64,000 nt of DNA, from assembly GCA_026874595.1 (NCBI GenBank), contig CM049316.1, forward strand, positions 50,725,676-50,789,675, read 5' to 3'. Under the pieces are notes generated by a model, which did no database searches, had not been told where the DNA came from, and saw only the letters and a program-made list of their open reading frames with translations. Source of the stretch: Sipunculus nudus. Its lineage: Eukaryota > Annelida > Sipuncula > Golfingiida > Sipunculidae. Numbering within the stretch: the first letter of the stretch is position 1; the number at the start of each line of letters is the position of its first letter. Below are positions 4,276 through 47,659 of the stretch, piece by piece. A program made the translations under genes and the position numbers.

Positions 4276-4472
4276 TCTGTCCATCCACACAAATTAGTTT
4301 CCAGATGATAACTCCAGTTAAGTTTGATATATTGGTTTCAAACTTAACTTATAAATGGCCCACCAATAAGGAATGTGTCTGCGTTTGAAGCCAAACTTTT
4401 CATCGCAAACCTTCCATCTTCAAGATATTGCTAACCTGCCACTAGGGGAAGATCATTTGATTTTTGGGTCAT

Positions 4473-9700: not shown

Positions 9701-10094
9701 ACAAAATTATTGTTTCAATTATAACTTCTGTAACATTACACAAAAATTATTCTTAGGTGGCCTTTGTTCAAGTTTACTTGAATGATTTTTGGCAGAATAT
9801 TTGGACCTTTAAACAAGAAAGAACTGCATCTTTTATTATTCTAGATATTTTGATAAAAAGTTTATGAATAAGTCAGTTTGAAAAAAAGGCATTTTAGCCA
9901 AAGTCTTTCAGTATGTGTAAACAGATTCACCAACACTCCAAGATTGTGTCTGTATCTTTAAATAGGTTAAGAAAGTGCCAACTGTTTCAGATTTGGCAAA
10001 TGATCAAGAGTTCATTCAGTGCAGCCAGATTTAGGTCAAGAGTTCAATCAGTGCAGCCAAGCACAAGGCATGTGATCACCTCATGGGTGACATT

Positions 10095-10790: not shown

Positions 10791-10793
10791 CAC

Positions 10794-10823
10794 GTAGTCG
10801 CTTGTCGACTACCCGTATTCTAG
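10794..10823 (+). repeat. Helitron-like 3' terminus: hairpin plus CTAG
   Basis: A perfect 7-bp stem, GTAGTCG (10,794-10,800) and CGACTAC (10,806-10,812) with loop CTTGT, is followed after seven bases by CTAG (10,820-10,823) and then T. Helitron 3' ends are known for a short GC-rich hairpin a few bases before CTRR, with insertion before T. This fits, but no 5' TC end was assigned. Confidence 0.65.
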
Positions 10824-11533
10824 TTAATGTATGATAAGAGTGTGGTCGGTCATAATAGCCTATGGTTAATGTTGTCTTTGTTTGTAAAAACTGACATAAA
10901 ATAAAATGCTTGTATTATATCGAATTGTCAGAATCATTCTCCTATTATCACTCACATGTGCCTACTTGTCATGAAAGTACTGATGTGCATGCGTATATAC
11001 ATTTATTAACACGTTTTAAAAGCCAAAGCAACAAATATGCAGTGCATTTAAATTTATAAATCGTTATGGTTACATTTAAAGTTAGAGTTATATCCCTATG
11101 CATTAGCAATCAATCGATACGACCAATACAGCATGCAACGCATTTCGATTATCGTATCGACGTCGTGTATCGATTCGTATCGATATATCGATATATTGAT
11201 ACAGCCCTACTCGAAAGTGATATAAATTCAACTCAGTTTTAAATTCTACTACTGTATACAACTACACTGTACCACTACTAAAAGAACGAAAACTTTTACT
11301 ACTATAAAACCAAAGAAGCAAAAGCGTTTTTACTTTAAAATAATTGCATTACAGTTTATTTAGCGGACTGCTGCATTCCAGCTCTGGGAAAACAGCGTAT
11401 CCAGTTAGAAAATGGTGTTTTGGTAATTGCCATTCAAGCACATAAAGTTTACCTGCCTCATAGTCGCGTAATTTGTTTAAACTTTATAATAATTGCATTA
11501 TATTCTCTGTATTTCTGCTCTGGGAATGCATAT
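10824..11533. other. AT-rich non-coding stretch with transposon-like palindromes
   Basis: No coding signal. It contains a dense ATCGAT/CGTATCG palindrome region (see 11,112-11,210) and two imperfect copies of a CTCTGGGAA...-containing segment around 11,340-11,410 and 11,485-11,540. A minus-strand AATAAA lies at 11,360-11,355, about 175 bp past the Ulp1-PHD stop codon, and could be an old poly(A) signal. Confidence 0.5.
11112..11210 (-). mobile_element. Probable DNA-transposon end fossil
   Basis: Read on the minus strand it starts TAGGGCTGTATCAATA and continues with repeated ATCGATA/CGATACGA palindromes. TAGGGCTG-type starts followed by internal palindromes resemble hAT-like termini. No matching opposite end or target duplication was found, so this stays tentative. 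Confidence 0.35.
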
Positions 11534-13158
11534 TCATTGTTCGCAGAGGGTACATGTAAAGAAGTAATCCTCCGATATATCTTCAGGTACATTTGCACAA
11601 ATACTATGCCACCTTATACCACACATTGAACATGTTATCATATTTCCATAAAAATAGTCAGGATATTTGCATGGACAGTGTAATACTATCTCATGGTGCA
11701 CATGTTTAACCTTGACAGGACGTTTTCGCTGATTTTTTGGAAACAGTGTGAAATTTTTTGGCTCTAAACAGTTTTTTAAATGGGTTCTCATTCTATATTC
11801 ATCATATACCCAGTCACTATAATTTTAAAATTTAACCAACTGTTCAGCCTATTGTTGGAAAATTCAACCGTGTTTGCGATCGCATATACCCCACAATCTG
11901 AGATATTATTCTGTAACAAGGCATTCACTACCGAAACATGTAATTTAGATTGCTCCAAGTTGTAGATTTGGCAAAGCTGTATTTCTGTTGAAGAAGTAAG
12001 ACTCTTTGCGCCCCCCCCCCCCCCCCGCAAGCTATCTATTACAAACAAACCTCTCTCATCCGGTCGGACCGATATAAGCCAATGTTAATGTCCAGTGAAA
12101 TGTATTTGTACACACGGGCCTTTTTCGAGAACCTATATTTTTAAAACCTGTTTCAGGCACGATCCATTTGTTTCATTCATCACTGAATTAAGCAAGGTGT
12201 TAAAGTAGTATATCTTGGAATCTGATGATTTCTGGATATTGTTTTTGTCAAATTATTTGCGCAGGATGCACGGATATGCTTATCAGAAAGCCAAGAATCA
12301 TTTTCTATTTCTCTTTTATTTTGAACTGTTAGTCCGAATTCATGCAGCCAATACCTTGCTCGGCACGTCTGTTTTTCTGGTGAATTATGTATTAAAATTG
12401 GCAATATCGGATTTGCCTTTCTCTTTTTAACTGAAACATTGTTTTCAAATGTCGGCAATTTTTTTCGTTTTAGCGAGAGTCGATTTCTTTTTTTGTTTTT
12501 GTTGTTGTAATCTTCGGGGATTACTTTACGAATATCGCTTAGCGGGCTATTACATTCATTAGAGGTCACACAATTTTCCAAGGTTATTTTATTTGTGGTC
12601 TGTTTTTGTGTAGAGGATGCATTTATTTCAAAAGATTGTGTATCGATAATGCTTTCCGGCATCCCTACTGGACTACAATTAGGAGTTGGAAGCAAGGATG
12701 AACTGTCATCTTTACTTTTTTCTTTACTGTTACTATTACTCTTGCAAAAATCAAGTCTAATTCTCACTCGTTTCCGTTCTGAATTTTTCAAAATTGATTT
12801 TGGTGTTTTTTTTAAACTGTAACATTATTTAATGGTGTTATGGCCGGGTAGCTTGTGTCTTAACTTTATCAACAGTATCCTATTTAGTTTTCTGTTTCCA
12901 AACTGGAACCAGGTCATCTAGCTTGGGAGATTGCAGTTCTATCTCTAGGTGAGGTTATCATGGAAACATCGGTATCGGGAGCAGCTTCAAATTCGTACAC
13001 GAAATCTGATTTTCTCAGCTGTTTTCTACCCGTTTTTCTAGCCACCCTTTTCTTACTACACCGAGACATTAGTGAACATTTAGTTTGCGTTTTTGATCGA
13101 TTACATCCATACCATGTCCCATTGTTTTCCCATGAATACTGATCGCAGCGCCAATCAT
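11534..13158 (-). pseudogene. Decayed Ulp1-like cysteine protease with C-terminal PHD finger, copy 1
   Basis: Minus-strand reading gives, in order: a Cys/Trp-rich segment (starts DDWRCDQYSWENNG, four Cys; about 13,158-12,930); a basic linker with TPKSILK; WLSDKHI, a typical Ulp1 domain opening; HWLIS (His codon 12,084-12,082); VIDSL (catalytic Asp); QNNISDCG (Q-x5-C spacing, Cys codon 11,895-11,893); then a complete PHD pattern C-x-C-x12-C-x2-C-x4-H-x2-C-x15-C-x2-C ending at 11,534. The family removes SUMO-like modifiers, and Ulp1-PHD fusions are common in transposon-derived proteins. It is broken: in-frame stops at 12,135-12,133 and 12,087-12,085 (just before the catalytic His), and frameshifts near 12,950, between the linker and protease, and near 11,830. 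The 203-codon open stretch 12,791-12,180 is only one surviving piece. A transposon origin is inferred; a host gene remnant is possible. Confidence 0.75.
12011..12026. repeat. Poly-C tract inside the Ulp1 remnant (16 C)
   Basis: Encodes a glycine run on the minus strand between the catalytic Asp and Gln/Cys of the protease. The other copy (52,916-52,934) has 19 C, a difference of exactly one codon. Confidence 0.9.
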
Positions 13159-13179
13159 CTGGAACAGATGGGAGGAAAA
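13159..13179 (-). other. Candidate 3' splice site before the Cys/Trp-rich exon
   Basis: On the minus strand a pyrimidine-rich run (TTTTCCTCCCATCTGTTCC) ends in AG at 13,160-13,159, immediately before codons for the Cys/Trp-rich segment. It looks like a good acceptor and implies the source gene had at least one upstream exon, which I could not find. Confidence 0.4.
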
Positions 13180-13304
13180 TACTTTTAATATAAAAAAAAA
13201 ATAAACTGGTATCTGGTGGGATTTAATTTTTGACTATATATGCTGTACTTCATATCACACATTAACATAATTGCATAGAATAAGGAAAACGTATTTAGAC
13301 TGTA

Positions 13305-13420
13305 TGTGTGTGTGTGGGTGAGGGGGGGGGGGGGAGAAAAAGAGAGGAGAATGAGAGATGGTAGGAAATATAAGGAAGCGTATTAAGATTGTGTGTTGGG
13401 GAGAGAGAGAGAGAGAGGTT
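13305..13420. repeat. Compound microsatellite: (GT)n, poly-G, (GA)n
   Basis: TGTGTGTG followed by GGGTGA and 13 G, then AG-rich sequence and an AGAGAG run near 13,400. The second copy (54,212-54,323) has 10 G at the same place, so the tracts changed length after duplication. Confidence 0.9.
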
Positions 13421-13870
13421 ACACTATTTATATAACTACAGAAAGCAAGAAAGTGGAACTGCTCATACTTTCAAACTAAGGGGTTTCTTCAGTGGGTGGT
13501 ACGATCAAAGGATAATAGGATTACAGTACTTCAAATAGCTACAAAGGATTAATTACTCTGCCGAGGTCTATTTGTCATCACTGTCCGTACATAAACAATA
13601 TTACTCCATAAATGAATTGTTTGCCTTCAATTGTGCGCCATGGAAATTAATGAGTTTAATTAGTTTATTATTAAATAGCCAAATTGGCCATGTCTCTGGA
13701 TGAGGTTTGCCTGTAATAACTGTGTACACACCAGCACCTGCCTGAAAGGCCAGGCCGCCGGGAAGAGAATCCATAATTTAGTAATCAATTAACTTTGTTG
13801 GGGTATCCTCCGCTGCCCTTTTTTTATTATTATGTATTAAACCCGTTAAATTTTAGTCTTAGTGCCGAAT
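13421..13870. other. Unassigned low-copy stretch
   Basis: No recognised gene. On the minus strand of the second copy (54,678-54,454) a 74-codon ORF starts MDSLPGGLAFQAGAG. Here one extra T near 13,620 shifts the frame, so it is not kept open in both copies. It could be an exon trace or chance. Confidence 0.35.
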
Positions 13871-13973
13871 AAGTAAACCAAAATTTTGACATAGTTTTTA
13901 TATGTTTTATAATTTCAATATTAAGTAAACCACATATTTGACATACTATTTTATGTTTTATAATTTCTATATT
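13871..13973. repeat. Tandem duplication of a 52-bp AT-rich unit
   Basis: Two imperfect copies starting AAGTAAACCA (13,871) and AAGTAAACCAC (13,923), both ending near TTTTATAATTTC. Confidence 0.85.
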
Positions 13974-14284
13974 TCCATATTTAATGCATACCCTTTATAC
14001 CATTAAAAATTTAAGGATAGGTGAGTTTACGATAATTTCTATATGTCAAAATCAATGGGAAGCACTCATTGGTGGATCTCCGGGCAGGATGGCGGTCTCC
14101 GGACGATCTCAGGGTCGTCTCCGGGTGAGGTTTCCGTGGATAACTGAATAAATACTTTGTGCACTTGCAAATTAAGTATCATATTCAATGTGGATGTCAT
14201 TTAGAAGTGTCAAGGGGAAGGTTTAATAAGAATTGCTGCCTTATTAATTAAGATATCGCGTTGTCTTTATTTATAATCCCTCAG

Positions 14285-14382
14285 TTATCAACCAAGGTCA
14301 ACCTGCCTAATAAGGACACCTCACTATTAAGGACAAAACGATTGAGACCCTTGACTGTCCGCTTTAGACAGGTTTCACTGTA
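14285..14382 (-). mobile_element. pogo/Tigger-like transposon end fossil
   Basis: On the minus strand TA is followed by CAGTGAAACCTGTCTAAAG and then repeated AAGGACA-type subterminal motifs. CAGTGRAACCTC-type termini next to TA are typical of pogo/Tigger elements. Only one end is seen and no transposase. Confidence 0.4.
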
Positions 14383-14519
14383 TATCATGCAATTTGACTT
14401 GGGGCAGATAAGATTAATATAATCAATAATTTTTGTGTTGTGTTCATGTTAATTGTTAATTGTTGTGTTTGTGTTATTGGTTCTTGTTAAAATTGTTTAG
14501 TACATGCATTGTTCATATA

Positions 14520-15037
14520 CATGGTTCACATGTACTTGAAAAGTAATGGTCTAGCATTGAAGCATTATGTACCTGGTGTAGGTTGGATTGACATATGATT
14601 TCAAACTTGACTTTTGAATGAGCCACCACTAAAGCAAGAAATTTTACGATTTTTATGTCATTAGTTCAAAGGTCAAAGTCATTTGACCCACTTATTTAAA
14701 AAGATTATGGCTGCATTTTAAACCAAGCTTTTCATCCAAAACCTTCCATCTTGCGCATATTGCTAAAACTTTTCATCCCAAACTTTCCATCTTTCACACA
14801 TGGCTTACCTGCCATGTGGAAGAAATTTGTAGATTCTGAGGTTTCCTGGTCTGCGGTCAACATCCCATTTTTCAAAGATTGTTAAGATAATCTAAATGCT
14901 GTATGTTCAAGGATTGTAACTTCTCAAATATTGGGTCACAAAGTCATTGGTTAGATCACCGGAACCACATTTTGAAAAAGCTCATAAATATCCTTACAAT
15001 CAAATTCAGCTGAGGGTTGTGACCCATGGGTCCCTAG
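14520..15037 (+). mobile_element. Chimeric repeat: class A 3' region joined to class B tail
   Basis: From 14,520 to 14,580 the sequence matches the class A 3' subterminal region (CATATACATG ... GCATTGAAGCATTAT ... CCTGGTGTA). It then switches to sequence like 45,660-45,720 (TTGACATAT ... TTCAAACTTGACTT). It ends with a class B terminus: CAGCTGAG (15,007-15,014), the palindrome GACCCATGGGTC (15,021-15,032) and CCTAG before TT. Confidence 0.6.
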
Positions 15038-15350
15038 TTGAAAACAGATTTGGCACCATGGCAAGTTTCAACATGTCAAGAGGTCAATCAGTGCACCCAA
15101 GTGGGGTCCAGATATCACCATGGCAACTGACCTGGCTCTGCCTGGTGTCCAGATACAGTCTAGAGGATGTGTCTAAACACATCATCTAGAAGTTTAGAAC
15201 CTGCCAATTGTGTCAGATTTTACAAAAGGTCAAGTTATGCTCTGTCTCTATAAATAACTTTGGCAGACTGCCAACCATTTCAGATTTGCAAACAGGTCAA
15301 GTTTCAGTCAGTAAGAGCCAGTGGTAAGTTTCAGTCTGTAAGAGCCAGTG
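15038..15350 (+). repeat. Diverged short-period module of class A
   Basis: Contains GGCAGACTGCCAAC, CAGATTTGCAAACAGGTCAAG and duplicated AAGAGCCAGTGGT units, related to the short-period sections at 2.9 kb and 5.9 kb. It has no terminus of its own. Confidence 0.5.
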
Positions 15351-15823
15351 GTGTGGTTACATGTGGCACATTAGGCACTGTTGACCTGGGGGAAAGCTGA
15401 GCCTCCATTGCCAGGATGCATGAATGGGTGTAGCCGTGACAACCCGACTCGGTAGGCAATCGGATAATTTGGCTGGTAAGCCTACTTGAGTCGTGATACT
15501 AGTAATATTGTGGAATGTATCGCAGTGGTCTTGCATCAGGTTGCATTCATATTGTGGTAAACGGCCCATAATCTCAATATTATGCTGAGAATACAATAGT
15601 ATACATGTGAGCTCACAACCTAAACTGAAACACCGTCTCCATGGACAAAGGTCATTTCCTGTATCACCTGCAAGCTGCCTGCGTCCTGTAACCCGTGCGA
15701 GCCGTGCTTGTGTTCATGGGGTCATAAATTCAACAAACATGCCAAGGGGTTAACCAATGTGCTGGGTTAAACAGTAACTTTTCTCGCTCATATTTGGTAT
15801 TATTTAAAATTACACAAAAAATG
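15351..15823. other. Low-copy stretch without recognisable gene
   Basis: A minus-strand 79-codon ORF (15,596-15,357) is open in both duplicate copies but has no motif I recognise and no clear splice or start context. I treat it as probably chance. Confidence 0.35.
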
Positions 15824-16063
15824 CTAACGATTGGTCTGGTTTATGTTGATTGACTGTGTACCTTTAGGCCATGAAGCGTTGTCAGAAATGACGAAAATAT
15901 TTGCATCTTCATAAGGCCTTATAATGCGTTCCTCAGACTGAGATGTCATATGACACTCTGGCGCGCAAGTAATCTGGTCGTAATGCCAGAGGGTCGATAT
16001 GACGCTAGAATAGGTCTGACTCAATAACAAGGCTAAAAGAGGAACTTGTTCTTAGAAGTTATA
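15824..16063 (-). other. Possible orphan exon or ORF, unknown product
   Basis: The open frame runs from just after a stop near 16,063 to a stop at 15,824, about 78 codons. It opens with a hydrophobic stretch (VPLLALLLSQ) and has two Cys close together (ITCAPECHM). There is no ATG at the start, and the acceptor-like context upstream is weak. The second copy (57,031-57,270) keeps the same frame. I do not recognise a family. Confidence 0.25.
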
Positions 16064-16365
16064 GGGAAAAAGCTCAAAAACATTTTAAAATGTTCTTCTC
16101 TGAAACCATGCTGCCAAATTGTCTGTTCATCTGTCCCAATATCCCTCCCTGGCAAAAAGAACATATCTGAAATATCCTGACTGATACATCCTAGTTTTAA
16201 AATGTCCTAGTCCGAAACGTGCAGGTCTGAAAACGTCCATTTGGCGGAAATCATAATGACTAAGGTAGATATGCAGGACATGAGAGGATCAATATTAAAT
16301 TTAAAAAAAATAAACATTCATACTCCAAAACTTTGCACAGGTTTGCTTTAGGCCTGTAGGCCTAG
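16064..16365 (+). mobile_element. Class A fragment with 3' cap
   Basis: A fragment of a 178-bp-type unit is followed by unrelated sequence, then CACAGGTTTGC (16,336-16,346), the palindrome AGGCCTGTAGGCCT (16,350-16,363) and AG before TT, forming CTAG|TT at the end. Confidence 0.6.
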
Positions 16366-17418
16366 TTAATAAATCCATTCCTCTTTAGAGTTCCTATCTA
16401 TACACCAGAAATTAGTTCAGTATTTGTAAATTTTTTAAGTTATGGGCCTGAACATAATGCACTTTGAAAAAAATCAGGAAATATCTTTATTTCATATGTC
16501 ATATCTGAAATTGAGGTATTGGTGGTGCCACCTGCATCGAGTCTTTTTTGTACAGAGTCATCAGTACCTGTATCACACTGAGGGCTACAAAAAACTTCTT
16601 TTCTGAAACCATATGGCCAAATTGTTTAATATCCCACAGTAATAATCTTAGGGTAATGCTTTCTGAAGTTTGTTCAAATGGTGTCTGTTCAGTGACTTTT
16701 GGCCAAGTTATGGGAAGCTGAATTTAGTCATATGCCATAATAACCCATTTTAGCTCAGTAGCTACAAAGATCTTCTTCTCAAAAACTACTGCGCAAAATT
16801 CTTAAATCTCACACATTTATTTTCCTCAGATGTTGATAATTCAGGTTTGTTCAGTGCTTTTTAGCTGATTGAGGAAAGTTGAACTTAGCCAGTTTGCTAT
16901 ATCTTTATATATGAGTTATAAACCTGCAAAATGTTTTTTCACTGATGCCACTGAAGCCAGGCTGTTTAATATTTTACAAGAATAATCCCCACAATAATTC
17001 TTATAATAATTGTCTTTAATAGTTCCACATGAATGATTTTTGGCTGAAATATGGAGATTGAATCGAGTCATTTTACCATATATGTTAGCTGTGTGATGCT
17101 GTTACATCTAGCCTGGCACCAGTTTATCAGCATCTAGATTACATCATGCCACTAGACATTTAGATTTTAGGTTATCTGTGGTTAATATTGACAAGAATGT
17201 TTTTAAAAAGCTTTTAAAAATTAGATTTATGATTTAAATTATTCATCATACCATGCAATGTTACAATCATGGATATTTGGCTCTCTGTGGCTATATAAAA
17301 ACGACTGTACATGGATTATAAATGATTGGTATCCATATTCAACTTAATTAAAAAATTTGCCATCAAGGAGATGTATCTGTATTATAATTTTGCATTCAGT
17401 ATGAATGTGTAAGAATTA
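16366..17418 (+). repeat. Class B interior fragment and 5'-truncated class A body
   Basis: 16,380-16,480 matches the class B interior (GGGCCTGAACATAATGCAC). From about 16,495 it becomes class A body with GGTGGTGCCACC at 16,521-16,532 and 178-bp-type units, ending at the class C 5' terminus. There is no class A 5' motif. Confidence 0.6.
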
Positions 17419-17443
17419 GGGCCCCGCTTGACAAGCGGTGCCC
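17419..17443 (+). repeat. Class C 5' terminal hairpin
   Basis: A 25-bp near-perfect inverted repeat with 12-bp arms (GGGCCCCGCTTG against CAAGCGGTGCCC), one mismatch pair and a single-base centre. The identical structure is at 58,626-58,650. Confidence 0.9.
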
Positions 17444-19817
17444 TATAGTGATCACCTTGTCAGTCCGTCCTTCCGTACTTCCGTCAATGACACTTTCTTT
17501 TTGCCACAATAACTCAACAACAACATACTGCAGCTTTCCCAAATTCACAGGGATGATTCGTACCTATGACGGCTCCAGACCTGTCGAATTACAGACTTGT
17601 CGGAATTCAAATATGGCCACCACAGCCCAATCGCTGATTTTTTTTTTGCACGCGATAACTCAACAACATATTGCAGCTTTCCCAAATTCACAGGGATAAT
17701 TGGTACCAATCACAGCTCTAGACCTATCGAATTACAGACTTGTCAAAATTCAAATATGGCTGCCACAGCCCAATCGCTGATTTTCTTTAGCACGCAATAA
17801 CTGAACAACATACTGAAGCTTTCCCAAATTCACAGGGATGATTGGTACCTATGACAGCTCTAGACCTGTTGAATTACAGACTTGTCAGAATTCAAATATG
17901 GCCGCCATAGCCCAATCGCTGTTTTTCTGTTGCACGCAATAACTCAACAACTACATACTGCAGCTTTCCCAAATTCACAGGGATGATAGGTACCTATGAC
18001 AACTCGAGACCTGTCGAATTACAGACTTGTCAGAATTCAAATATGGCCGCCACATCCCAATCGCTGATTATCTTTTGCACGCAATAACTCAACAACAACA
18101 TACTGCAGCTTTCTCAAATTCACAAGGATGATTTGTACCTATGACGGCTCCAGACCTATCGAATTACAGACTTGTCCGAATTCAAATATGGCCGCCACAG
18201 CCCAATCGCTGATTTTTTTTTTGCACGCGATAACTCAACAACAACATACTGCAGCTTTCCCAAATTCACAGGGATAATTGGTACCAATCACAGCTCTAGA
18301 CCTATCGAATTACAGACTTGTCCAAATTCAAATATGGCTGACACAGCCCAATCGCTGATTTTCTTGCGCATGCGATAACTCAACAACAACATACTGAAGC
18401 TTTCCCAAATTCACAGGGATGATTGGTACCTATGACAGCTCTAGACCTGTCGAATTACAGACTTGTCAGAATTCAAATATGGCCGCCACAGCCCAATCGC
18501 TAATTATCTTTTGCACGCGATAATTCAACAACAACATTCTGCAGCTTTCCCAAATTCACAGGGATAATTGGTACCTATGACGGCTCCAGACCTATTGCAT
18601 TACAGACTTCTGGGAATTCAAATATGACTGCCTCAGCCCAATCGCTGATTTTCTTTCACACGCGATAACTCAACAACAACATACTGCAGCTTTCCCAAAT
18701 TCACAGGGATGATTGGTACCTATGACATACTGAGACCTGTCGAATTACAGACATGTCAGAATTCAAATATGGCCACCACATCCCAATCACTAATTTTCTT
18801 TTGCACAAAATAACTCAACAACAACATACTGCAGCTTTCCCAAATTCACAGGGATGATAGGTACCTATGACAACTCGAGACCTGTCGAATTACAGACTTG
18901 TCAGAATTCAAATATGGCCACCACATCCCAATCGCTAATTATTTTTGCACGCAATAACTCAACAACAACATACTGCAGCTTTCTCAAATTCACAAGAATG
19001 ATTTGTACCTATGACGGCTCCAGACCTGTGGAATTACAGACCTGTCGATATTCAAATATGGTTGCCACAGCCCGATCGCTGATTTTCTTTCGCACACGAT
19101 AACTCAACAACAACATATTGCAGCTTTCCCAAATTCACAGGGATGATTTGTACCTAAGACGGCTCCAGACCTATCGAATTACACACTTGTCCGAATTCAA
19201 ATATGGCCGCCACAGCCCAATCGCTGATTTTTTTTTGCACGCGATAACTCAACAACAACATACTGCAGCTTTCCCAAATTCACAGGGATAATTGGTACCA
19301 ATCACAGCTCTAGACCTATCGAATTACAGACTTGTCCAAATTCAAATATGGCTGACACAGCCCAATCGCTGATTTTCTTTCGCATGCGATAACTCAACAA
19401 CAACATACTGAAGCTTTCCCAAATTCACAGGGATGATTGGTACCTAAGACAGCTCTAAACCTGTCGAATTACAGACTTGTCAGAATTCAAATATGGCCGC
19501 CACAGCCCAATCGCTAATTATCTTTTGCACGCGATAATTCAACAACAACATTCTGCAGCTTTCCCAAATTCACAGGGATAATTGGTACCTATGACGGCTC
19601 CAGACCTATTGCATTACAGACTTGTCGGAATTCAAATATGACTGCCACAGCCCAATCGCTGATTTTCTTTCACACGCGATAACTCAACAACAACATACTG
19701 CAGCTTTCCCAAATTCACAGGGACGATTGGTACCTATGACATACTGAGACCTGTCGAATTACAGACATGTCAGAATTCAAATATGGCCACCACATCCCAA
19801 TCACTAATTTTGTTTTG

Positions 19818-22557
19818 CACAAAATAACTCAACAACAACATACTGCAGCTTTCCCAAATTCACAGGGATGATTGGTACCTATGACAGCTCTAGACCTGTC
19901 GAATTACAGACTTGTCAGAATTCAAATATGGCCGCCACAGCCCAATCGCTAATTATCTTTTGCACGCGATAATTCAACAACAACATTCTGCAGCTTTCCC
20001 AAATTCACAGGGATAATTGGTACCTATGACGGCTCCAGACCTATTGCATTACAGACTTGTCGGAATTCAAATATGACTGCCACAGCCCAATCGCTGATTT
20101 TTTTTGCACGCGATAACTCAACAACATATTGCAGCTTTCCCAAATTCACAGGGATAATTGGTACCAATCACAGCTCTAGACCTATCGAATTACAGACTTG
20201 TCCAAATTCAAATATGGCTGCCACAGCCCAATCGCTGCTTTTATTTAGCACGCAATAACTCAACAACATACTGAAGCTTTCCCAAATTCACAGGGATGAT
20301 TGGTACCTATGACATACTGAGACGTGTTGAATTACAGACTTGTCAGAATTCAAATATGGCCGCCATAGCCCAATTGCTAATTATCTTTTGCACGCAATAA
20401 CTCAAGCACAACATACTGCAGCTTTCTCAAATTCACAAGGATGATTTTTACCTATGACGGCTCCAGACCTGTGGAATTACAGACCTGTCGATATTCAAAT
20501 ATGGTTGCCACAGCCCGATCGCTGATTTTCTTTCGCACACGATAACTCAACAACAACATATTGCAGCTTTCCCAAATTCACAGGGATGATTTGTACCTAA
20601 GACGGCTCCAGACCTATCGAATTACAGACTTGTCCAAATTCAAATATGGCTGACACAGCCCAATCGCTGATTTTCTTTCGCATGCGATAACTCAACAACA
20701 TCATACTGAAGCTTTCCCAAATTCACAGGGATGATTGGTACCTATGACAGCTCTAGACCTGTCGAATTACAGACTTGTCAGAATTCAAATATGGCCGCCA
20801 CAGCCCAATCGCTAATTATCTTTTGCACGCGATAATTCAACAACAACATTCTGCAGCTTTCCCAAATTCACAGGGATAATTGGTACCTATGACGGCTCCA
20901 GACCTATTGCATTACAGACTTGTCGGAATTCAAATATGACTGCCACAGCCCAATCGCTGATTTTCTTTCACACGCGATAACTCAACAACAACATGCTGCA
21001 GCTTTCCCAAATTCACAGGGATGATTGGTACCGATGACATACTGAGACCTGTCGAATTACAGATATGTCAGAATTCAAATATGGCCACCACATCCCAATC
21101 ACTAATTTTCTTTTGCACAAAATAACTCAACAACAACATACTGCAGCTTTCCCAAATTCACAGGGATAATTGGTACCAATGACCGCTCCAGACCTATTGC
21201 ATAACAGACTTGTCGGAATTCAAATATGACTGCCACAGCCCAATCGCTGATTTTTTTTGCACGCGATAACTCAACAACATATTGCAGCTTTCCCAAATTC
21301 ACAGGGATAATTGGTACCAATCACAGCTCTAGACCTATCGAATTACAGACTTGTCTAAATTCAAATATGGCTGCCACAGCCCAATCGCTGATTTTCTTTA
21401 GCACACAATAACTCAACAACATACTGAAGCTTTCCCAAATTCACAGGGATAATTGGTACCTATGACGGCTCCAGACCTATTGCATTTCAGACTTGTCGGA
21501 ATTCAAATATGACTGCCACAGCCCAATCGCTGATTTTCTTTCACACGCGATAACTCAACAACAACATACTGCAGCTTTCCCAAATTCACAGGGATGATTG
21601 GTACCTATGACATACTGAGACCTGTTGAATTACAGACATGTCAGAATTCAAATATGGCCGCCACATCCCAATCGCTAATTATCTTTTGCAAGCAATAACT
21701 CAACAACAACATACTGCAGCTTTCTCAAATTCACAAGGATGATTTGTACCTATGGCGGCTCCGGACCTGTGGAATTACAGACCTGTCGATATTCAAATAT
21801 GGTTGCCACAGCCCGATCGCTGATTTTCTTTCGCACACGATAACTCAACAACAACATATTGCAGCTTTCCCAAATTCACAGGGATGATTTGTACCTAAGA
21901 CGGCTCCAGACCTATCGAATGACAGACTTGTCCGAATTCAAATATGGCCGCCACAGCCCAATCGCTGATTTTTTTTGCACGCGATAACTCAACAACAACA
22001 TACTGCAGCTTTCCCAAATTCACAGGGATAATTGGAACAAATCACAGCTCTAGACCTATCGAATTACAGACTTGTCCAAATTCAAATATGGCTGACACAG
22101 CCCAATCGCTGATTTTCTTTCGCATGCGATAACTCAACAACAACATACTGAAGCTTTCCCAAATTCACAGGGATGATTGGTACCTATGGCAGCTCTAGAC
22201 CTGTCGAATTACAGACTTGTCAGAATTCAAATATGGCCGCCACAGCCCAATCGCTAATTATCTTTTGCACGCGATAATTCAACAACAACATTCTGCAGCT
22301 TTCCCAAATTCACAGGGATAATTGGTACCTATGACGGCTCTAGACCTATTGCATTACAGACTTGTCGGAATTCAAATATGACTGCCACAGCCCAATCGCT
22401 GATTTTCTTTCACACGCGATAACTCAACAACAACATACTGCAGCTTTCCCAAATTCACAGGGATGATTGGTACCTATGACATACTGAGACCTGTCGAATT
22501 ACAGACATGTCAGAATTCAAATATGGCCACCACATCCCAATCACTAATTTTCTTTTG
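19818..22557 (+). repeat. Higher-order repeat copy 1 (2,740 bp, 19 monomers)
   Basis: Starts at the CACAAAATAACTC variant monomer. Marker monomers recur at +2,740 in the next copy. Confidence 0.9.
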
Positions 22558-25014
22558 CACAAAATAACTCAACAACAACATACTGCAGCTTTCCCAAATT
22601 CACAGGGATGATTGGTACCTATGACAGCTCTAGACCTGTCGAATTACAGACTTGTCAGAATTCAAATATGGCCGCCACAGCCCAATCGCTAATTATCTTT
22701 TGCACGCGATAATTCAGCAACAACATTCTGCAGCTTTCCCAAATTCACAGGGATAATTGGTACCTATGACGGCTCCAGACCTATTGCATTACAGACTTGT
22801 CGGAATTCAAATATGACTGCCACAGCCCAATCGCTGATTTTTTTTGCACGCGATAACTCAACAACATATTGCAGCTTTCCCAAATTCACAGGGATAATTG
22901 GTACCAATCACAGCTCTAGACCTATCGAATTACAGACTTGTCCAAATTCAAATATGGCTGCCACAGCCCAATCGCTGCTTTTATTTAGCACGCAATAACT
23001 CAACAACATACTGAAGCTTTCCCAAATTCACAGGGATGATTGGTACCTATGACATACTGAGACGTGTTGAATTACAGACTTGTCAGAATTCAAATATGGC
23101 CGCCATAGCCCAATTGCTAATTATCTTTTGCACGCAATAACTCAAGCACAACATACTGCAGCTTTCTCAAATTCACAAGGATGATTTTTACCTATGACGG
23201 CTCCAGACCTGTGGAATTACAGACCTGTCGATATTCAAATATGGTTGCCACAGCCCGATCGCTGATTTTCTTTCGCACACGATAACTCAACAACAACATA
23301 TTGCAGCTTTCCCAAATTCACAGGGATGATTTGTACCTAAGACGGCTCCAGACCTATCGAATTACAGACTTGTCCAAATTCAAATATGGCTGACACAGCC
23401 CAATCGCTGATTTTCTTTCGCATGCGATAACTCAACAACATCATACTGAAGCTTTCCCAAATTCACAGGGATGATTGGTACCTATGACAGCTCTAGACCT
23501 GTCGAATTACAGACTTGTCAGAATTCAAATATGGCCGCCACAGCCCAATCGCTTATTATCTTTTGCACGCGATAATTCAACAACAACATTCTGCAGCTTT
23601 CCCAAATTCACAGGGATAATTGGTACCTATGACGGCTCCAGACCTATTGCATTACAGACTTGTCGGAATTCAAATATGACTGCCACAGCCCAATCGCTGA
23701 TTTTCTTTCACACGCGATAACTCAACAACAACATGCTGCAGCTTTCCCAAATTCACAGGAATGATTGGTACCGATGACATACTGAGACCTGTCGAATTAC
23801 AGACATGTCAGAATTCAAATATGGCCACCACATCCCAATCACTAATTTTCTTTTGCACAAAATAACTCAACAACAACATACTGCAGCTTTCCCAAATTCA
23901 CAGGGATAATTGGTACCAATGACCGCTCCAGACCTATTGCATAACAGACTTGTCGGAATTCAAATATGACTGCCACAGCCCAATCGCTGATTTTCTTTCA
24001 CACGCGATAACTCAACAACAACATGCTGCAGCTTTCCCAAATTCACAGGGATGATTGGTACCGATGACATACTGAGACCTGTTGAATTACAGACATGTCA
24101 GAATTCAAATATGGCCGCCACATCCCAATCGCTAATTATCTTTTGCAAGCAATAACTCAACAACAACATACTGCAGCTTTCTCAAATTCACAAGGATGAT
24201 TTGTACCTATGGCGGCTCCGGACCTGTGGAATTACAGACCTGTCGATATTCAAATATGGTTGCCACAGCCCGATCGCTGATTTTCTTTCGCACACGATAA
24301 CTCAACAACAACATATTGCAGCTTTCCCAAATTCACAGGGATGATTTGTACCTAAGACGGCTCCAGACCTATCGAATGACAGACTTGTCCGAATTCAAAT
24401 ATGGCCGCCACAGCCCAATCGCTGATTTTTTTTGCACGCGATAACTCAACAACAACATACTGCAGCTTTCCCAAATTCACAGGGATAATTGGAACAAATC
24501 ACAGCTCTAGACCTATCGAATTACAGACTTGTCCAAATTCAAATATGGCTGACACAGCCCAATCGCTGATTTTCTTTCGCATGCGATAACTCAACAACAA
24601 CATACTGAAGCTTTCCCAAATTCACAGGGATGATTGGTACCTATGGCAGCTCTAGACCTGTCGAATTACAGACTTGTCAGAATTCAAATATGGCCGCCAC
24701 AGCCCAATCGCTAATTATCTTTTGCACGCGATAATTCAACAACAACATTCTGCAGCTTTCCCAAATTCACAGGGATAATTGGTACCTATGACGGCTCTAG
24801 ACCTATTGCATTACAGACTTGTCGGAATTCAAATATGACTGCCACAGCCCAATCGCTGATTTTCTTTCACACGCGATAACTCAACAACAACATACTGCAG
24901 CTTTCCCAAATTCACAGGGATGATTGGTACCTATGACATACTGAGACCTGTCGAATTACAGACATGTCAGAATTCAAATATGGCCACCACATCCCAATCA
25001 CTAATTTTCTTTTG
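22558..25014 (+). repeat. Higher-order repeat copy 2 (2,457 bp, 17 monomers)
   Basis: Same monomer order as copy 1 but lacking two monomers (283 bp) near 23,990, where a T-rich GCACGCG variant is replaced directly by the following CACACGCG variant. Confidence 0.9.
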
Positions 25015-27755
25015 CACAAAATAACTCAACAACAACATACTGCAGCTTTCCCAAATTCACAGGGATGATTGGTACCTATGACAGCTCTAGACCTGTCGAA
25101 TTACAGACTTGTCAGAATTCAAATATGGCCGCCACAGCCCAATCGCTAATTATCTTTTGCACGCGATAATTCAGCAACAACATTCTGCAGCTTTCCCAAA
25201 TTCACAGGGATAATTGGTACCTATGACGGCTCCAGACCTATTGCATTACAGACTTGTCGGAATTCAAATATGACTGCCACAGCCCAATCGCTGATTTTTT
25301 TTGCACGCGATAACTCAACAACATATTGCAGCTTTCCCAAATTCACAGGGATAATTGGTACCAATCACAGCTCTAGACCTATCGAATTACAGACTTGTCC
25401 AAATTCAAATATGGCTGCCACAGCCCAATCGCTGCTTTTATTTAGCACGCAATAACTCAACAACATACTGAAGCTTTCCCAAATTCACAGGGATGATTGG
25501 TACCTATGACATACTGAGACGTGTTGAATTACAGACTTGTCAGAATTCAAATATGGCCGCCATAGCCCAATTGCTAATTATCTTTTGCACGCAATAACTC
25601 AAGCACAACATACTGCAGCTTTCTCAAATTCACAAGGATGATTTTTACCTATGACGGCTCCAGACCTGTGGAATTACAGACCTGTCGATATTCAAATATG
25701 GTTGCCACAGCCCGATCGCTGATTTTCTTTCGCACACGATAACTCAACAACAACATATTGCAGCTTTCCCAAATTCACAGGGATGATTTGTACCTAAGAC
25801 GGCTCCAGACCTATCGAATTACAGACTTGTCCAAATTCAAATATGGCTGACACAGCCCAATCGCTGATTTTCTTTCGCATGCGATAACTCAACAACATCA
25901 TACTGAAGCTTTCCCAAATTCACAGGGATGATTGGTACCTATGACAGCTCTAGACCTGTCGAATTACAGACTTGTCAGAATTCAAATATGGCCGCCACAG
26001 CCCAATCGCTTATTATCTTTTGCACGCGATAATTCAACAACAACATTCTGCAGCTTTCCCAAATTCACAGGGATAATTGGTACCTATGACGGCTCCAGAC
26101 CTATTGCATTACAGACTTGTCGGAATTCAAATATGACTGCCACAGCCCAATCGCTGATTTTCTTTCACACGCGATAACTCAACAACAACATGCTGCAGCT
26201 TTCCCAAATTCACAGGAATGATTGGTACCGATGACATACTGAGACCTGTCGAATTACAGACATGTCAGAATTCAAATATGGCCACCACATCCCAATCACT
26301 AATTTTCTTTTGCACAAAATAACTCAACAACAACATACTGCAGCTTTCCCAAATTCACAGGGATAATTGGTACCAATGACCGCTCCAGACCTATTGCATA
26401 ACAGACTTGTCGGAATTCAAATATGACTGCCACAGCCCAATCGCTGATTTTTTTTGCACGCGATAACTCAACAACATATTGCAGCTTTCCCAAATTCACA
26501 GGGATAATTGGTACCAATCACAGCTCTAGACCTATCGAATTACAGACTTGTCTAAATTCAAATATGGCTGCCACAGCCCAATCGCTGATTTTCTTTAGCA
26601 CACAATAACTCAACAACATACTGAAGCTTTCCCAAATTCACAGGGATAATTGGTACCTATGACGGCTCCAGACCTATTGCATTTCAGACTTGTCGGAATT
26701 CAAATATGACTGCCACAGCCCAATCGCTGATTTTCTTTCACACGCGATAACTCAACAACAACATACTGCAGCTTTCCCAAATTCACAGGGATGATTGGTA
26801 CCTATGACATACTGAGACCTGTTGAATTACAGACATGTCAGAATTCAAATATGGCCGCCACATCCCAATCGCTAATTATCTTTTGCAAGCAATAACTCAA
26901 CAACAACATACTGCAGCTTTCTCAAATTCACAAGGATGATTTGTACCTATGACGGCTCCAGACCTGTGGAATTACAGACCTGTCGATATTCAAATATGGT
27001 TGCCACAGCCCGATCGCTGATTTTCTTTCGCACACGATAACTCAACAACAACATATTGCAGCTTTCCCAAATTCACAGGGATGATTTGTACCTAAGACGG
27101 CTCCAGACCTATCGAATGACAGACTTGTCCGAATTCAAATATGGCCGCCACAGCCCAATCGCTGATTTTTTTTGCACGCGATAACTCAACAACAACATAC
27201 TGCAGCTTTCCCAAATTCACAGGGATAATTGGAACAAATCACAGCTCTAGACCTATCGAATTACAGACTTGTCCAAATTCAAATAATGGCTGACACAGCC
27301 CAATCGCTGATTTTCTTTCGCATGCGATAACTCAACAACAACATACTGAAGCTTTCCCAAATTCACAGGGATGATTGGTACCTATGGCAGCTCTAGACCT
27401 GTCGAATTACAGACTTGTCAGAATTCAAATATGGCCGCCACAGCCCAATCGCTAATTATCTTTTGCACGCGATAATTCAACAACAACATTCTGCAGCTTT
27501 CCCAAATTCACAGGGATAATTGGTACCTATGACGGCTCTAGACCTATTGCATTACAGACTTGTCGGAATTCAAATATGACTGCCACAGCCCAATCGCTGA
27601 TTTTCTTTCACACGCGATAACTCAACAACAACATACTGCAGCTTTCCCAAATTCACAGGGATGATTGGTACCTATGACATACTGAGACCTGTCGAATTAC
27701 AGACATGTCAGAATTCAAATATGGCCACCACATCCCAATCACTAATTTTCTTTTG
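25015..27755 (+). repeat. Higher-order repeat copy 3 (2,741 bp, 19 monomers)
   Basis: Contains the two monomers missing from copy 2 and has one extra A near 27,283. The next CACAAAATAACTC at 27,756 starts a partial repeat that diverges within one monomer. Confidence 0.9.
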
Positions 27756-28463
27756 CACAAAATAACTCAACAACAACATACTGCAGCTTTCCCAAATTCA
27801 CAGGGATGATTGGTACCTATGACAACTCGAGACCTGTCGAATTACAGACTTGTCAGAATTCCAATATGGCCTCCACAGCCCGATTGCTGATTTTCTTTCG
27901 TGCGCTGTAACTCAACAACAACCTACTGCAGCTTTCCTGAATTCACAGGGATGATTGGTACCTATGAGGGCTCCAAACATATTGCATTACAGATCTGTCC
28001 GAATTCCAATATGGCCGCCACAGCCCAATCGCTGATTTTCTTTCGTGTGCAATAACTCACCAAAAACCTCAGGCAGCTTTCCCAAATTCACAGGGATGAT
28101 TGGCACCTGTAAGGGCTCCAGACCTTTTGGATAACAGACCTGTTGGAATTTCGATATGGCCGCTACTGCCCAATTGCTGATTTTCTTTCGTGCATGATAA
28201 CTAAAAAAACAACATACTTCAGCTTTTCCAAATTTACAGGGATCACTGGTCCCTATGCGGGCTCCAGACCTATTGAAATACAGACTTGCTCAAAATCAAA
28301 TATGGCTAACAGACTACATTCAGTTATTTTCTGTTGCACACATTATTTCAGACATATATCTTTTTTAATCCAGTACGATTTTTTCCCTCATGCATATTGA
28401 TAAAAACCTGTTTCTGTTTGTGATATTTTTCAAATTTAACTTAATTTTTCACCCATATGCAAA

Positions 28464-28507
28464 CTAGTCAAGCACTAGCAGAAACGCGGGGCCCTCTGAG
28501 GACCATT
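28464..28507 (+). repeat. Class C 3' subterminal inverted repeat and cap
   Basis: CTAGTcaagcACTAG forms a small hairpin. GTCAAGC and GCGGGGCCC are inverse matches to the 5' end, and CCTCTGAGG is a terminal palindrome. The element ends within one base of the start of the 7.3-kb tandem duplication. Confidence 0.6.
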
Positions 28508-29560
28508 GAAATTTTAACCAAAGTCTTTCAGTATGTGTAAACAGATATACCAACAGGCCAAGATTGAATCTGTATCTTTAAATAGGTTGAGAAACTGCCA
28601 ACTGTTTCAGATTTGGGAACAGATCAAGAGTTCATTTAGTGCAGCCAGATATAGGTCAAGAGTTCAATCAGTGCAGCCAAGCACATGGCATGTGATCACC
28701 TCATGGGTGACATGTGAACACCTCATGGGCACCATGTGATCACTTCATGGGTGTCAAGCCCCTCAGGGCAGGGCCCCTGCATGAGCTTATGCAATGGTGT
28801 GGCTACTATTTCAGATTAGGCAACAGGCTAGAGGTCAGTCTGGATCTATTTATAGCTTTGGCAGACTGCTAACTGTATCAGATTAGGCAACAGGTCAAGA
28901 GTTCACTCAGTGCAGCCAGGTATGGGTCAGGAGTTTACTCAGTGCAGAAGCTGCATTCTATTTATAGCTTTGGCAGACTGCCAACTTTGTCAGATTATGC
29001 AACAGGTCAAGATTTCACTCAGTGCAGCCAGGTACAGGTCAAAAGTTCACTCAGTCTGGCCAAATGCAGGTCATGAGTTCACTCAGTGCAGTAGTCTGAG
29101 AAAGCAATTTGTCACAGTTCACTCGGGGCAACAGCCTTTCTCACCTAAGCCTGGTCAGCCCCATGCATCAGACTCAAGGTAAGTTTAATGTATTGGCCTA
29201 ATATTTTGTGTCTATGTGTCTTTGATGGCTTTCTCGCTCACAAGACAGGTGTTGCCACCTACCATGACTTTTGAACACGTTTTTCTCAGGAGGGGTTTGA
29301 TATATCAGTCTGAAATTGGGCGTATGTATATATCTCTGATAGCTTCGTTGTATACAAGACTGGTGGTGCCAGCTACAATCTTTTAAGTGTTGTGTGCACC
29401 TATGCCAGAATTTCAGCAGTGATGTTTGTGTAATTGTTTCTTATTCAAAATGTTTAGTACTTGCATAGTTCATATACATGAAAATTAATGGTCAAGCATT
29501 GAAGCATTATACCTGGTGTATTCCCCAATGCACAGGTTCGCATTAGGCCTGTAGGCCTTG
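28508..29560 (+). mobile_element. Class A 3' part with cap
   Basis: Short-period module with several AGGTCANNAGTTCA pairs, then 135-bp-type units, then CACAGGTTCGC (29,531-29,541), the palindrome AGGCCTGTAGGCCT (29,545-29,558) and TG. CACAGGTTCGC is the exact reverse complement of the class A 5' motif. The 5' part is absent because the satellite element lies directly upstream. Confidence 0.7.
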
Positions 29561-30380
29561 TTTCATATATTGCTGATTTCTTTTTTTTTGTAAAATGTCA
29601 GCTGAAAAGCATTTTGTATTGGGAAAATGTATTTCAAAGTTATTTCAAGGAGGGACCACTTTCTACAGATAGCAGCACTTGGTTTACCATTGGAGATTGC
29701 CAGTGCCTTGATCTTGGCTATTAGCCAAGATGATATCAGCTCTTTAAATAGTTTTGGCACAGTGCCTGGATTGGAAGAAGTGCAGCCAGGTATAGGTCAA
29801 GAGTTCACTCAGTGCAGTAGCTGCATTCTATTAATAGCTTTGGCAGACTGCCCACTTCAACAGATTTGGCACCAATGTTCAGCCTGGATCTATAGCTTTG
29901 GCAGACTTCCAACTGTGTCAGATTATGCAACAGGTCAAGATTTCACTCAGTGCAACCAGGTACAGGTCAAAAGTTCACTTAGTCTAGCCAGGTGCAGGTC
30001 AAGAGTTCACTCAGTGCAGTAGCTTGAGGTAGTAATTTGTCACAGATCACTCGGGGGCAACTGCCTTACCTACCTTAGCCTGGTCAGCCCAGTGCATCAA
30101 ACTCAAGGGAGGTTTGATATATTGGCCTGATATTTTGACCTGTCCATGCATCTTTGATGGCTCTCTCGTTCACAAGACAGGTGTCACCACCTACATTGAT
30201 TTTTCCATAGTGTATGCGCCTGCTTTTTTCTACAGAGGAATTTTATACATCAGCCTGAAATTGGGCATATTTATACATATCGGGTAGCTTTGTAGTGTAG
30301 AAGACTGATGGTGCCACCTACAATAATTTTTACACAGTGTATGTCCCAGCTTATTTCGCAGGAGGGCTACAATCATTTTT
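29561..30380 (+). repeat. Second class A 3'-type module, no cap
   Basis: Starts with a T-rich segment and a module also found at 8,150-8,335 (AAAAGCATTTTGTATTGG). Short-period AGGTCA units and 135-bp-type units follow. It stops at the class B hairpin without a class A terminus. Two open frames of 65 and 131 codons here are repeat translations. Confidence 0.6.
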
Positions 30381-33123
30381 AGCTCAGCTGACTGTAAGTC
30401 AACTGAGGTATAGGTATGGCGCTTTTTCCATCGTCAGTCTGGCCGTCCGTTAGCAGGGCACAAATCGTATCCACTGACCCTAGAAGCCTGTAACTAAAAA
30501 TCTAGGGAGGTCCATAAAAAATCTATCTCCTTGGAAACCTGAAATTAGGTCACTGTAACCTATATCCTCCAAGCTATCCGGCTTGAAAGTACCCCCCCCC
30601 CCCGAATAATAAATAATTTGATACAAAACCTCCAATATCTTGATAATTGATGCATGGATTGTCATGAATCTTGCCTTGAATATTGACTATGACTAGATTT
30701 GTCAGTTCATGAAAAGTGGTGGCGCCACCTGTATATTTTCTTATTTTTAAGAATATTTATCTTCTTTTTAGCTCAGCTGACTATAAGTCATCTGAGCTAT
30801 AGTCGGGGTCCTTTGTTCGTCGGCTGTCCGTCCATCCATTAAACTGGCACGTTTTGAAACCATTGGGCCCACAAAAATCGGCATACCTTTAGAGGTACCC
30901 AAAATCTCCTACCATACTGAAAATTGGGTCACTACTTCATTCCTTCGATTTATTAAGGAAAACCCTCCATTTTCCATTAAAAACCCATTGTTACACTTCA
31001 AGACTGCCCAATATCAAAACCACTGACCTGATATTGACCATTTTTGATTTATCAGTTCCTCTATATATTTCCTATGTACATACCATAAATTAGTTCGATA
31101 TTTTTTAAATTCCTGAAGTAATGGGCCCAAACATAATGCACTTTGTAATAATTCAGGAAATTTATTTACTCTCTAACTTGAGAATTGCTGAAGCTAGAGT
31201 CTTTCTTTCAGGTATATATAACCGTATTTCGTCAAGATTCAATTGTATACCAAAAATTAGATCTGAATTTTTAAATTTTATAAGTTATTAGCATACCGGT
31301 AAATATTAAATCAGTACCTTAAATTTTTCTCAGATTTGACCAGGACACATTTTTTTTCCTGTAACTGCTGTGGATTTAATTTTCACAGCATGTTACCTTT
31401 AGCATTTCATTTCTTAACATCTGAAATTTGCAACAGTTGATCAAAAACTGTTGATTTTATTCCTGTTTTCAAGCACCATGTAAAGTATTGTTTAGATCAA
31501 GCAAGTGTTATGGAGTTTGCTAAAGCTCAGCTCCCAAGCTTCCCAGGCTAGCTCTCAGCTACCAAAATTTGGCATACAGTCAGATGTCCCCCAAACCCCC
31601 CTACCATACCAAAAGTTTGGTCACTAGAATTTCATTCCTTTGAGATGTTAAAAAAAACTTTAATTTTCAATTAAAAACCCATTGTTATACTTCAAGACTG
31701 CCTAATATCAAAACTACTGATCTGACTTTGATTATATAAAATATACATGTTATTCTATTTATACTCTATGCACATGCCAGAAATGATGTGAGTATTGCAA
31801 AACTGTTTTAAGTTATGGGCCCGAACATAATGCACTTTGTAAACAAGAAATATATTTACCCCCTTAACATGAAAATTGCTGAAGCTAGAGATTTTTTTTG
31901 TCAGGGATATAACATTATTTAATTCAGATTCAATTGTATACCCAAAATTAGTTCTGAATTTTTCAAATTTTATAAGTTATTAGCATAAATATAAAATCAG
32001 TACCTTAGATTTTGCCTAATTTTGATCATGGCTTGTTTGTTTCCTGAAAGCACTGTTGATGTCATTTTCATATCATGCAGAAATAAGGGTTTCAGCTTGT
32101 TATTTTTGAAAGTTGAAAGAAATTGGCCAAAAACTGTAGCTTTTATTAAATTTTTTATGAGACAATGTCAGACCCAGGCTCTACCCAGCCCCTCTTCAGT
32201 CACCTGTATGTCCTCAAGTTGACCTTTCAGGCCAATTATGCACGCTTGACGCGGGGCATATACTTGCAGCTGGGCAGCTTATTTGCTGGCCACAGCTGAT
32301 CCAGGTGTCCAACGCAGCTCATCTATTAGTTGTTTAGACCAACAGCATAACAATAAACAATGAATAAATAATTTTTTATAGGTTTATAATAACAACTTTA
32401 AAAATAATCAATAGAAAAGGAATTTGACAGTTGATGAGTGACATTGACAGGGAATTACCTTGCAGTTGCTGATGTTTTATGGATTTTGTATGGATGTATG
32501 AAAATGTATTCCAAGTAACACCATTGAGTCATCTATGGTATTTTTCTTTTCAATTTTAATAATGAAAAAAAAAAATAATTTAATTATATTGTACTATACT
32601 TTTAAGTATTATATGAAGGAAACCAATGATTGACAAAGATGCAGTTGAAAATTTTTAAATTTTACTCGGACAAGTACTTATTAAAGTTGTCAATGTGTTT
32701 CACTAATGACATTCAGACACATGGCTGTAACAGCTGTCACAAGACTATGTGAATAATCGAAATTTATATTATTGGTTCCTATATTTCAGTTAATAAAATT
32801 ACAATTGCCCATTTCTAGTTTTCTCCTTGTACAATTTATAGGGTATTCTTATGCTTGGGTTATTTTTTACACATATAATGGTTTCAAAGGTGAGAAACTT
32901 CAATTTTTTTCTGATACATTTTTTTTTAATAAAAAAATTTAAATATGATAAAAAATCAAATCTTAGACAAGTTCTCATTATGATTTCTGTAATGTTAATA
33001 ATTGTCATAAGACTCTTGCTATGTCTAGTGTAGATTGATGTGAAGGTAGTCCAAAGTGAAAATTATAGTTTTAATTTTGAATATAAATAAAATTCATAAA
33101 ACCAGGTACTTATGATCATTATT
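30381..33123 (+). mobile_element. Two nested or adjacent class B elements, copy 1
   Basis: The first starts with the hairpin at 30,383-30,407 and holds a 12-C run (30,592-30,603) and GGTGGCGCCACC at 30,718-30,729. The second starts with the hairpin at 30,770-30,798 followed by GTCCGTCCATCC. Its body contains a direct repeat of about 694 bp (GGGCCCRAACATAATGCAC at 31,123 and 31,817). No class B cap is found before the class A start at 33,124. No coding potential. Confidence 0.6.
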
Positions 33124-45596: not shown

Positions 45597-45633
<37 letters not shown>

Positions 45634-47657: not shown

Positions 47658-47659
47658 TT

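Follow-up and report, generated by a model that had tools for sequence, protein, structure and literature searches.

Non-autonomous Helentron-like elements of the HINE type carry tandem arrays of satellite-like repeats in their cores, and they are the closest described counterparts of the structure reported here: a 145-bp tandem array of 75 monomers held between element ends at positions 17419-28507 of a 64,000-bp stretch of the Sipunculus nudus genome (the window; C11:50725676-50789675 of a 1.43-Gb assembly in 153 contigs). The array is very probably the overgrown core of such an element, expanded in place by the steps proposed below. An earlier note on this DNA had described a satellite born from a Helentron-like element with expanded central monomers. 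Family ends, short dispersed elements, and HINE-like anatomy support the expanded element and hence the element origin; the birth of a satellite is a premature claim, because none of eight long arrays checked was free of element ends.

By its described plan, Cg_HINE of Crassostrea gigas (PMC7492417) shares with this locus a 5′ sub-terminal inverted repeat with complementary arm, a GTCC/GTCY microsatellite, a core array (there mostly of 140-180-bp repeats, mostly up to 5 of them), a 3′ sub-terminal repeat and, less clearly, a palindrome and T-rich insertion sites. Its longest array has 29.3 monomers, whereas the array here has 75, with nested higher-order units. CgiSat01 (Cg170/HindIII) of C. 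gigas (PMC8268682) likewise includes a long element-associated array, of 89 monomers, with short arrays common and long ones rare; array length alone is therefore not new. The same source carries the idea of Scalvenzi and Pollet that loss of mobility goes with array growth. CgiSat01 differs in that an array there is scored as associated if a box flanks it on one side or on both, in a standalone array of 232 monomers (none stands alone among the eight long arrays checked here), and in that the excerpts describe no colinear short relative. HINE and DINE-1 elements (PMC4067079) share palindromic sub-terminal repeats (mite HINE), central repeats and, less clearly, a 3′ palindrome and a T-rich/TT preference; in mite HINE the distance from the 5′ end to the repeats is 2-4 nt, whereas here the conserved 5′ block begins about 6 nt before the GGGCCC of the left end. 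DINE-TR1 of Drosophila (Dias et al. 2015, cited in PMC6947457) is by its title heterochromatin-enriched; the present case concerns one locus and its duplicate.

What is new here is fourfold: colinearity with a short seven-monomer relative (L032), 19-monomer higher-order units, a 55-monomer segmental duplicate, and the loss of ~17 nt at the 3′ end. Higher-order units inside a Helentron-type element are not described in the excerpts of the literature searched, including PMC10218199, which is no proof of their absence in print. Discussions of satellite origins usually start from end states, but a graded series for one family can be read in this single genome: ends without a monomer, then arrays of 1-14 monomers, longer ones of about 15-24 that mostly retain ends, and finally 55 and 75 in two copies of a segment. 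Because the short relative aligns with both array edges, grown and ungrown monomers can be read apart, and the growth mechanism thereby becomes testable with reads and relatives rather than inferred. The locus shows stepwise how a transposon core can become satellite-like DNA.

Array structure and a colinear short relative

The element and its duplicate comprise the following features.

17419-17443, + strand: 25-bp hairpin formed by the 5′ sub-terminal inverted repeat (GGGCCCCGCTTG) and its complementary arm (from the fold and the genome-wide 14-mer count)
17444-17493, + strand: remainder of the 5′ module, TATAGTGATCACC and then a GTCC-type microsatellite-like stretch (about 17459-17485)
17494-28306, + strand: 145-bp tandem array; 74.9 copies by Tandem Repeats Finder (TRF), 75 monomers by our own segmentation, the final one partial
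17529-19843, + strand: leading edge, monomers 1-16, the first three best matching L032 monomers 1, 2, 3
19844-22583, + strand: higher-order unit 1, 19 monomers, 2,740 bp
22584-25040, + strand: higher-order unit 2, a 17-monomer hybrid with an internal 283-bp deletion
25041-27781, + strand: higher-order unit 3, 19 monomers, 2,741 bp, differing from unit 1 by 6 mismatches and a single 1-bp gap
27782-28357, + strand: trailing edge, monomers 72-75, single copy and colinear with L032 monomers 4-5-6-7
28358-28507, + strand: right module with the 3′ sub-terminal inverted repeat GCGGGGCCC; ~17 nt of family terminus beyond it lost
58626-64000, + strand: second element copy with the same left end, running past the window and ending 2,823 bp beyond it (base 2,823 of L029); 55 monomers

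The palindromic left end claimed earlier is real: GGGCCCCGCTTGACAAGCGGTGCCC (17419-17443) forms a hairpin with 12-bp arms, 11/12 paired, and under DNA folding it was more stable than 200 of 200 shuffles (z -5.0). A 5′ sub-terminal inverted repeat with its complementary arm, as in HINE elements, is thus present, as is the GTCC/GTCY-type microsatellite of the left module, read directly here and also in the printed sampled elements. On the right, at 28486-28494, lies GCGGGGCCC, which inverts the opening 9 bases of the left end without a mismatch. The core array, proposed at about 74 copies, has the expected size by either count, and it is flanked by one left and one right module only.

Grouping monomers at ≤2 differences gave 27 types over both copies, with about 21 differing positions between monomers of different types. 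Copy 1 reads ABCDEFGHIDJ KFGLI [GMNOJPGLIQRLSJTFGLI] [GMNOJPGLIUSJTFGLI] [GMNOJPGLIQRLSJTFGLI] VWXY, and copy 2 reads ABCDEFGHIDJ Za, two of the 19-monomer units, and VWXY. Both copies thus share the edge types ABCDEFGHIDJ and VWXY, and the duplicate holds one block fewer. The four full units over both copies measure 2,740-2,741 bp and differ by 5-12 mismatches in pairwise alignment (99.6-99.8% identity); in the middle unit of copy 1, 283 bp are deleted, and 4-16 further positions distinguish it from the other units.

The edges of the array retain the order of L032, which has seven monomers. Window monomers 1, 2, and 3 match best L032 monomers 1, 2, and 3; monomers 72-75 match best its monomers 4, 5, 6, and 7; and each of monomers 4-71 is best matched by one of L032 monomers 1-3. 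Among the 18 other sampled elements with ≥6 monomers, none gives the 1-2-3 order, and the order of the last four is reproduced by two (L018, L034). This colinearity with both edges indicates that monomers 1-3 became 71 copies, whereas 4-7 stayed single. The final monomer is position-specific across seven seven-monomer elements (0.84 versus about 0.70; L015 was excluded from the comparison).

Block growth is also visible elsewhere in the family. Near-identical monomer pairs (≤8 differences) occur in 3/3 sampled elements with ≥11 monomers versus 2/30 with 2-10, and in L016 and L031 they lie mostly four monomers apart. The count leaves out seven of the 40 sampled loci (L010, L026, L038, L039, L042, L043, and L048, with no array, about one monomer, or a broken array) and uses only the larger block of L030 and L037.

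The array element lies in a ~41-kb tandem segmental duplication (5024-22796 vs 45943-64000, continuing in L029) that carries it together with its flanks. Identity is 99.1% over the first 9 kb, and the flanks of the two copies differ at 8/3,363 positions on the left and 23/4,141 on the right (0.24-0.56%). Taken with the divergence between units, this would mean that the block-sized change between the arrays is roughly as old as the segmental duplication.

A dispersed family with shared ends

The end motifs occur far above chance. The left-end 14-mer GGGCCCCGCTTGAC has 254 + 304 = 558 exact genome matches, versus 1 + 0 for the reversed control, and the right-end 24-mer (≤1 mismatch) has 226 + 227 versus 0 + 0. 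Our sample comprises 40 loci that cover the first 41 of the 558 left-end matches, all on contig C1, of which 20 were read over ~10 kb and 20 over ~2.4 kb.

The test set beforehand was the existence of short elements with the same ends, and such elements are common: 145-bp monomers occur in 36/40 sampled left-end loci (0.8-13.9 each, median 6.1 over all 40), which also supplies the core array of satellite-like repeats expected of HINE elements. A right module is present in 33/40. Neither this count nor the monomer count refutes a specificity of the end motifs to 145-bp arrays. Monomer counts for L030, L037, L046, and L048 are sums over separate blocks, with one block of L046 beyond the right module and one of L048 cut by the end of the stretch. 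Both ends with zero monomers are found in L043 (157 bp), and in L026 and L039 the sequence covered shows a left end but no monomers; L038, whose perfectly palindromic end led to the opposite flank being taken, is uninformative and still counted among the 40. The complementary arm is readable in most sampled left ends, the exceptions being L018, L019, L026, and L043. Seen from the other side, 12/27 exact right ends pair with an exact left end at a spacing of 673-2,351 bp, and the remaining 15 have no exact left end within 50 kb; these 27 come from the stretch over which left ends are listed in full. L030 (G000:C1:46522000-46524330) holds two family left ends in the same orientation, ~660 bp apart, as a tandem or nested pair: about two monomers belong to the first, and about five plus a right module to the second.

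Longer arrays were sought genome-wide with two queries, one 19-monomer unit and a 7.9-kb piece of the array, scoring the best 32 of 2,986 and the best 31 of 3,012 candidates, respectively; both listings are lower bounds, and copy 1 itself appears in neither. Among the matches listed, the duplicate comes first, followed by arrays of about 24 (C14), 22 (C1), 19 (C5, C1), 17 (C3), 16 (C6), and 15 (C10) monomers. For eight arrays with about 14-24 monomers we examined flanks of 500 bp, the earlier note having asked for long arrays with and without the ends: the left module is present in 8/8 and the right in 6/8. In the array at C1:68.6 the first 10 bases of the left module are unmatched, and the left module of the C3 array comes from the 14-mer search. 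No free-standing long 145-bp array was found among the eight checked, which were drawn from the best 31-32 of about 3,000 candidates scored.

The genome also contains Helitron-type Rep domains. Matches to Helitron_like_N (the Rep domain) number at least 143 (150 of 195 candidates scored) versus none in 14 control genomes, some of them in open frames of >2,200 aa and up to 2,426 aa. Long Rep frames lie, for example, at C13:66180677 and C8:80139053. The left end of the short element L036 is followed, 3.8 kb downstream on the same strand, by one such match (G000:C1:66566810, C1:66570627), which may be chance or part of a larger composite. L026 was considered as an autonomous partner and rejected: its match to the left end covers a mere 19 bp, and neither of its two >110-aa frames looks Rep-like by eye.

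Termini, growth, and competing explanations

Sixteen family right ends were aligned; 2 of 18 (L017, L019) offered no anchor and were left out. The inverted repeat GCGGGGCCC is exact in 8/16, and the family 3′ end extends about 31 nt past GGGCCC (TCTGAGGACCATTGTCCGACCACATCTAGTT) to CTAGTT, with ATCTAGT still present in 13/16. The family ends thus have the form TWATTA-GGGCCCCGC ... CTAGTT. With about 31 conserved nt beyond the right GGGCCC, the repeats are sub-terminal and asymmetric; the 3′ repeat is not flush with the terminus, as in HINE elements. The earlier note had read GTCAAGC and GCGGGGCCC together as the inverse match on the right. The GCGGGGCCC part stands, but GTCAAGC is peculiar to this locus, occurring in 0/16 other right ends, 11 of which have GTCCAGC, and we reject the idea that the two form one terminal repeat of 14 bp in split form.

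The window copy and its duplicate end after TCTGAGGACCATT(G), and local repeat follows. Because the family sequence stops there, ~17 nt are missing, including half of GGAC-CATT-GTCC. The array is accordingly only nearly held between both ends, the left one standing as proposed and the right one being truncated; the family consensus has a 3′ palindrome (GGACcattGTCC), half of which is gone in the window copy. The flanks are as follows.

16493-17418, + strand: left flank; unoccupied paralogues (8146, 9268, 34520, 41782, and duplicates) diverge at the insertion point, reading AATT|TT
28508-28943, + strand: right flank; abrupt homology to local-repeat copies (35782, 43761), which does not continue the left-flank repeat

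The left paralogues end at 8146, 9268, 34520, and 41782, and the right ones begin at 2888, 9891, 35782, and 43761. A simple insertion that could be closed within the window is thereby rejected, since the two flanks match different positions of the local repeat. The match of the right flank to another part of the repeat suggests that a deletion or other rearrangement accompanied the 3′ loss; judged by this homology, the right flank is apparently not the original insertion flank. The 5′ boundary at 17413-17420 reads GAATTAGGG and the corresponding 58620-58627 reads GAATATGGG, in surroundings nearly identical between the copies.

These features can be ordered into a proposed sequence of steps. 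An element of roughly seven monomers would have inserted at a T-rich site. Deletion or end-joining would then have removed ~17 nt of the 3′ end together with the original right flank, probably immobilising the copy. Misaligned (unequal) exchange or in-place block duplication may have amplified monomers 1-3, with growth first by few-monomer blocks and later by 19-monomer units, while the last four monomers, beside the right module, were not multiplied. Tandem duplication of the ~41-kb segment would have come next, with the arrays then diverging in block number, to 75 and 55 monomers. More tentatively, and as a doubtful generalization, losing the 3′ end might itself stop mobility, lift the limits on core length, and release growth, by ever larger blocks of about 3-4 and later 19 monomers, in the half of the array distant from the 3′ module while the four 3′ monomers remain fixed, so that satellites would nucleate one-sidedly at crippled elements.

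A number of observations count against an in-place expansion of a Helentron-like core or against its proposed order. L032 gives the best match for only 12 of the 25 distinct window monomer types, six other elements accounting for the other 13. Its edge monomers are about 89-94% identical, which makes it a relative and not the parent, and its own right end has been replaced by other sequence; since its monomers 1-3 are alike, the fine 1/2/3 assignment within the array is uncertain. The 3′ hairpin folds no better than shuffles, whether intact (z 0.48) or truncated as in the window (z 0.45). T stands at both -6 and -3 before GGGCCC in 20/20 sampled elements, and the window copy carries G at -6. 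The original insertion cannot be reconstructed, because the flanks match different parts of the local repeat. By eye, none of the listed Rep matches lies inside an element, as judged from the first 100 places of each end list. Truncation before growth is a proposed order only; six other long arrays keep the right module. Array lengths rest on one assembly, and no result separates unequal exchange from rolling-circle amplification with reinsertion.

That last alternative holds that the blocks arose by rolling-circle amplification, as excised circles that reinserted or through Helitron replication that skipped the 3′ terminator, and not by unequal exchange in place. The damaged 3′ terminus and the near identity of the higher-order units would suit it, and plant Helitron tandem arrays have been proposed to arise from terminator loss (Xiong et al., as described in PMC12628747). 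Many plant arrays, however, repeat the 5′ end (PMC12628747), whereas a single left and a single right module are found here, and the 283-bp, near two-monomer deletion of the hybrid unit is the product expected of unequal exchange; we regard rolling-circle growth as possible, if rather unlikely. It is quite improbable that an element captured part of a pre-existing 145-bp satellite, which would make the satellite the older partner and this locus their meeting point. Helitron capture of repeats is discussed (PMC12628747), and the zero-monomer element L043 exists, but the eight long arrays checked among the best-scored candidates all have a left module and mostly a right one, none being free-standing, and the edge monomers retain short-element order (L032) with a position-specific last monomer.

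The inverted arrangement of GGGCCCCGC and GCGGGGCCC, together with TTA directly before the left end in 16/20 sampled flanks, might point to a transposon with terminal inverted repeats, such as a PIF/Harbinger-like one, in place of a Helentron-like element. Such a transposon has inverted repeats at its very ends, which the conservation past the right GGGCCC and the retained ATCTAGT contradict; the HINE plan (PMC7492417) accounts for the hairpin at the 5′ side, the GTCC microsatellite, the array in the core, and the sub-terminal repeat at the 3′ side, and assignment to a terminal-inverted-repeat transposon is highly improbable. The array length and the 41-kb tandem copy could also be assembly artefacts, for example if both haplotypes had been placed in tandem. 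A flank divergence of 0.24-0.56% is compatible with this, as it lies within the ordinary heterozygosity of many animals. Against it, the two copies are arranged head-to-tail within a contig of 79 Mb, they are separated by a smaller and diverged tandem duplication (28957-32652 vs 36119-39823, 98.5%), and the 55-monomer copy alone is >2x the next longest array among the matches listed (about 24); an artefact appears improbable.

Neighbouring sequence

The in-between duplication is part of a ~7.2-kb tandem duplication to the right of the array, whose second portion pairs 32648-34993 with 39911-42261 (96.8%); behind the second array apparently only its later version is present. Both copies of the ~41-kb duplication contain a 214-aa open frame (12180-12824 and 53088-53732, both − strand), and the frame at 12180-12824 has no Pfam match up to E 0.1.

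Related units of ~1 kb with 148-177-bp sub-repeats occupy much of the window, and one of them borders the element. They lie at:

571-2110
4783-5889
6750-9308
16493-17417
33118-34560
40381-41834
45943-50213
57700-58623

The 5′ module had been compared with that of two further element classes, A and B. The likeness is real but short: positions 13-51 of the left end match 4206-4245 (82.5%) and 45570-45609 (80%). These matches fall in two more stretches resembling a 5′ module (GATGCCCTATA..CACCCTGTCTGTC), at 4206-4281 and 45570-45633, each followed by CTGT microsatellites; the two are perhaps other HINE-like elements.

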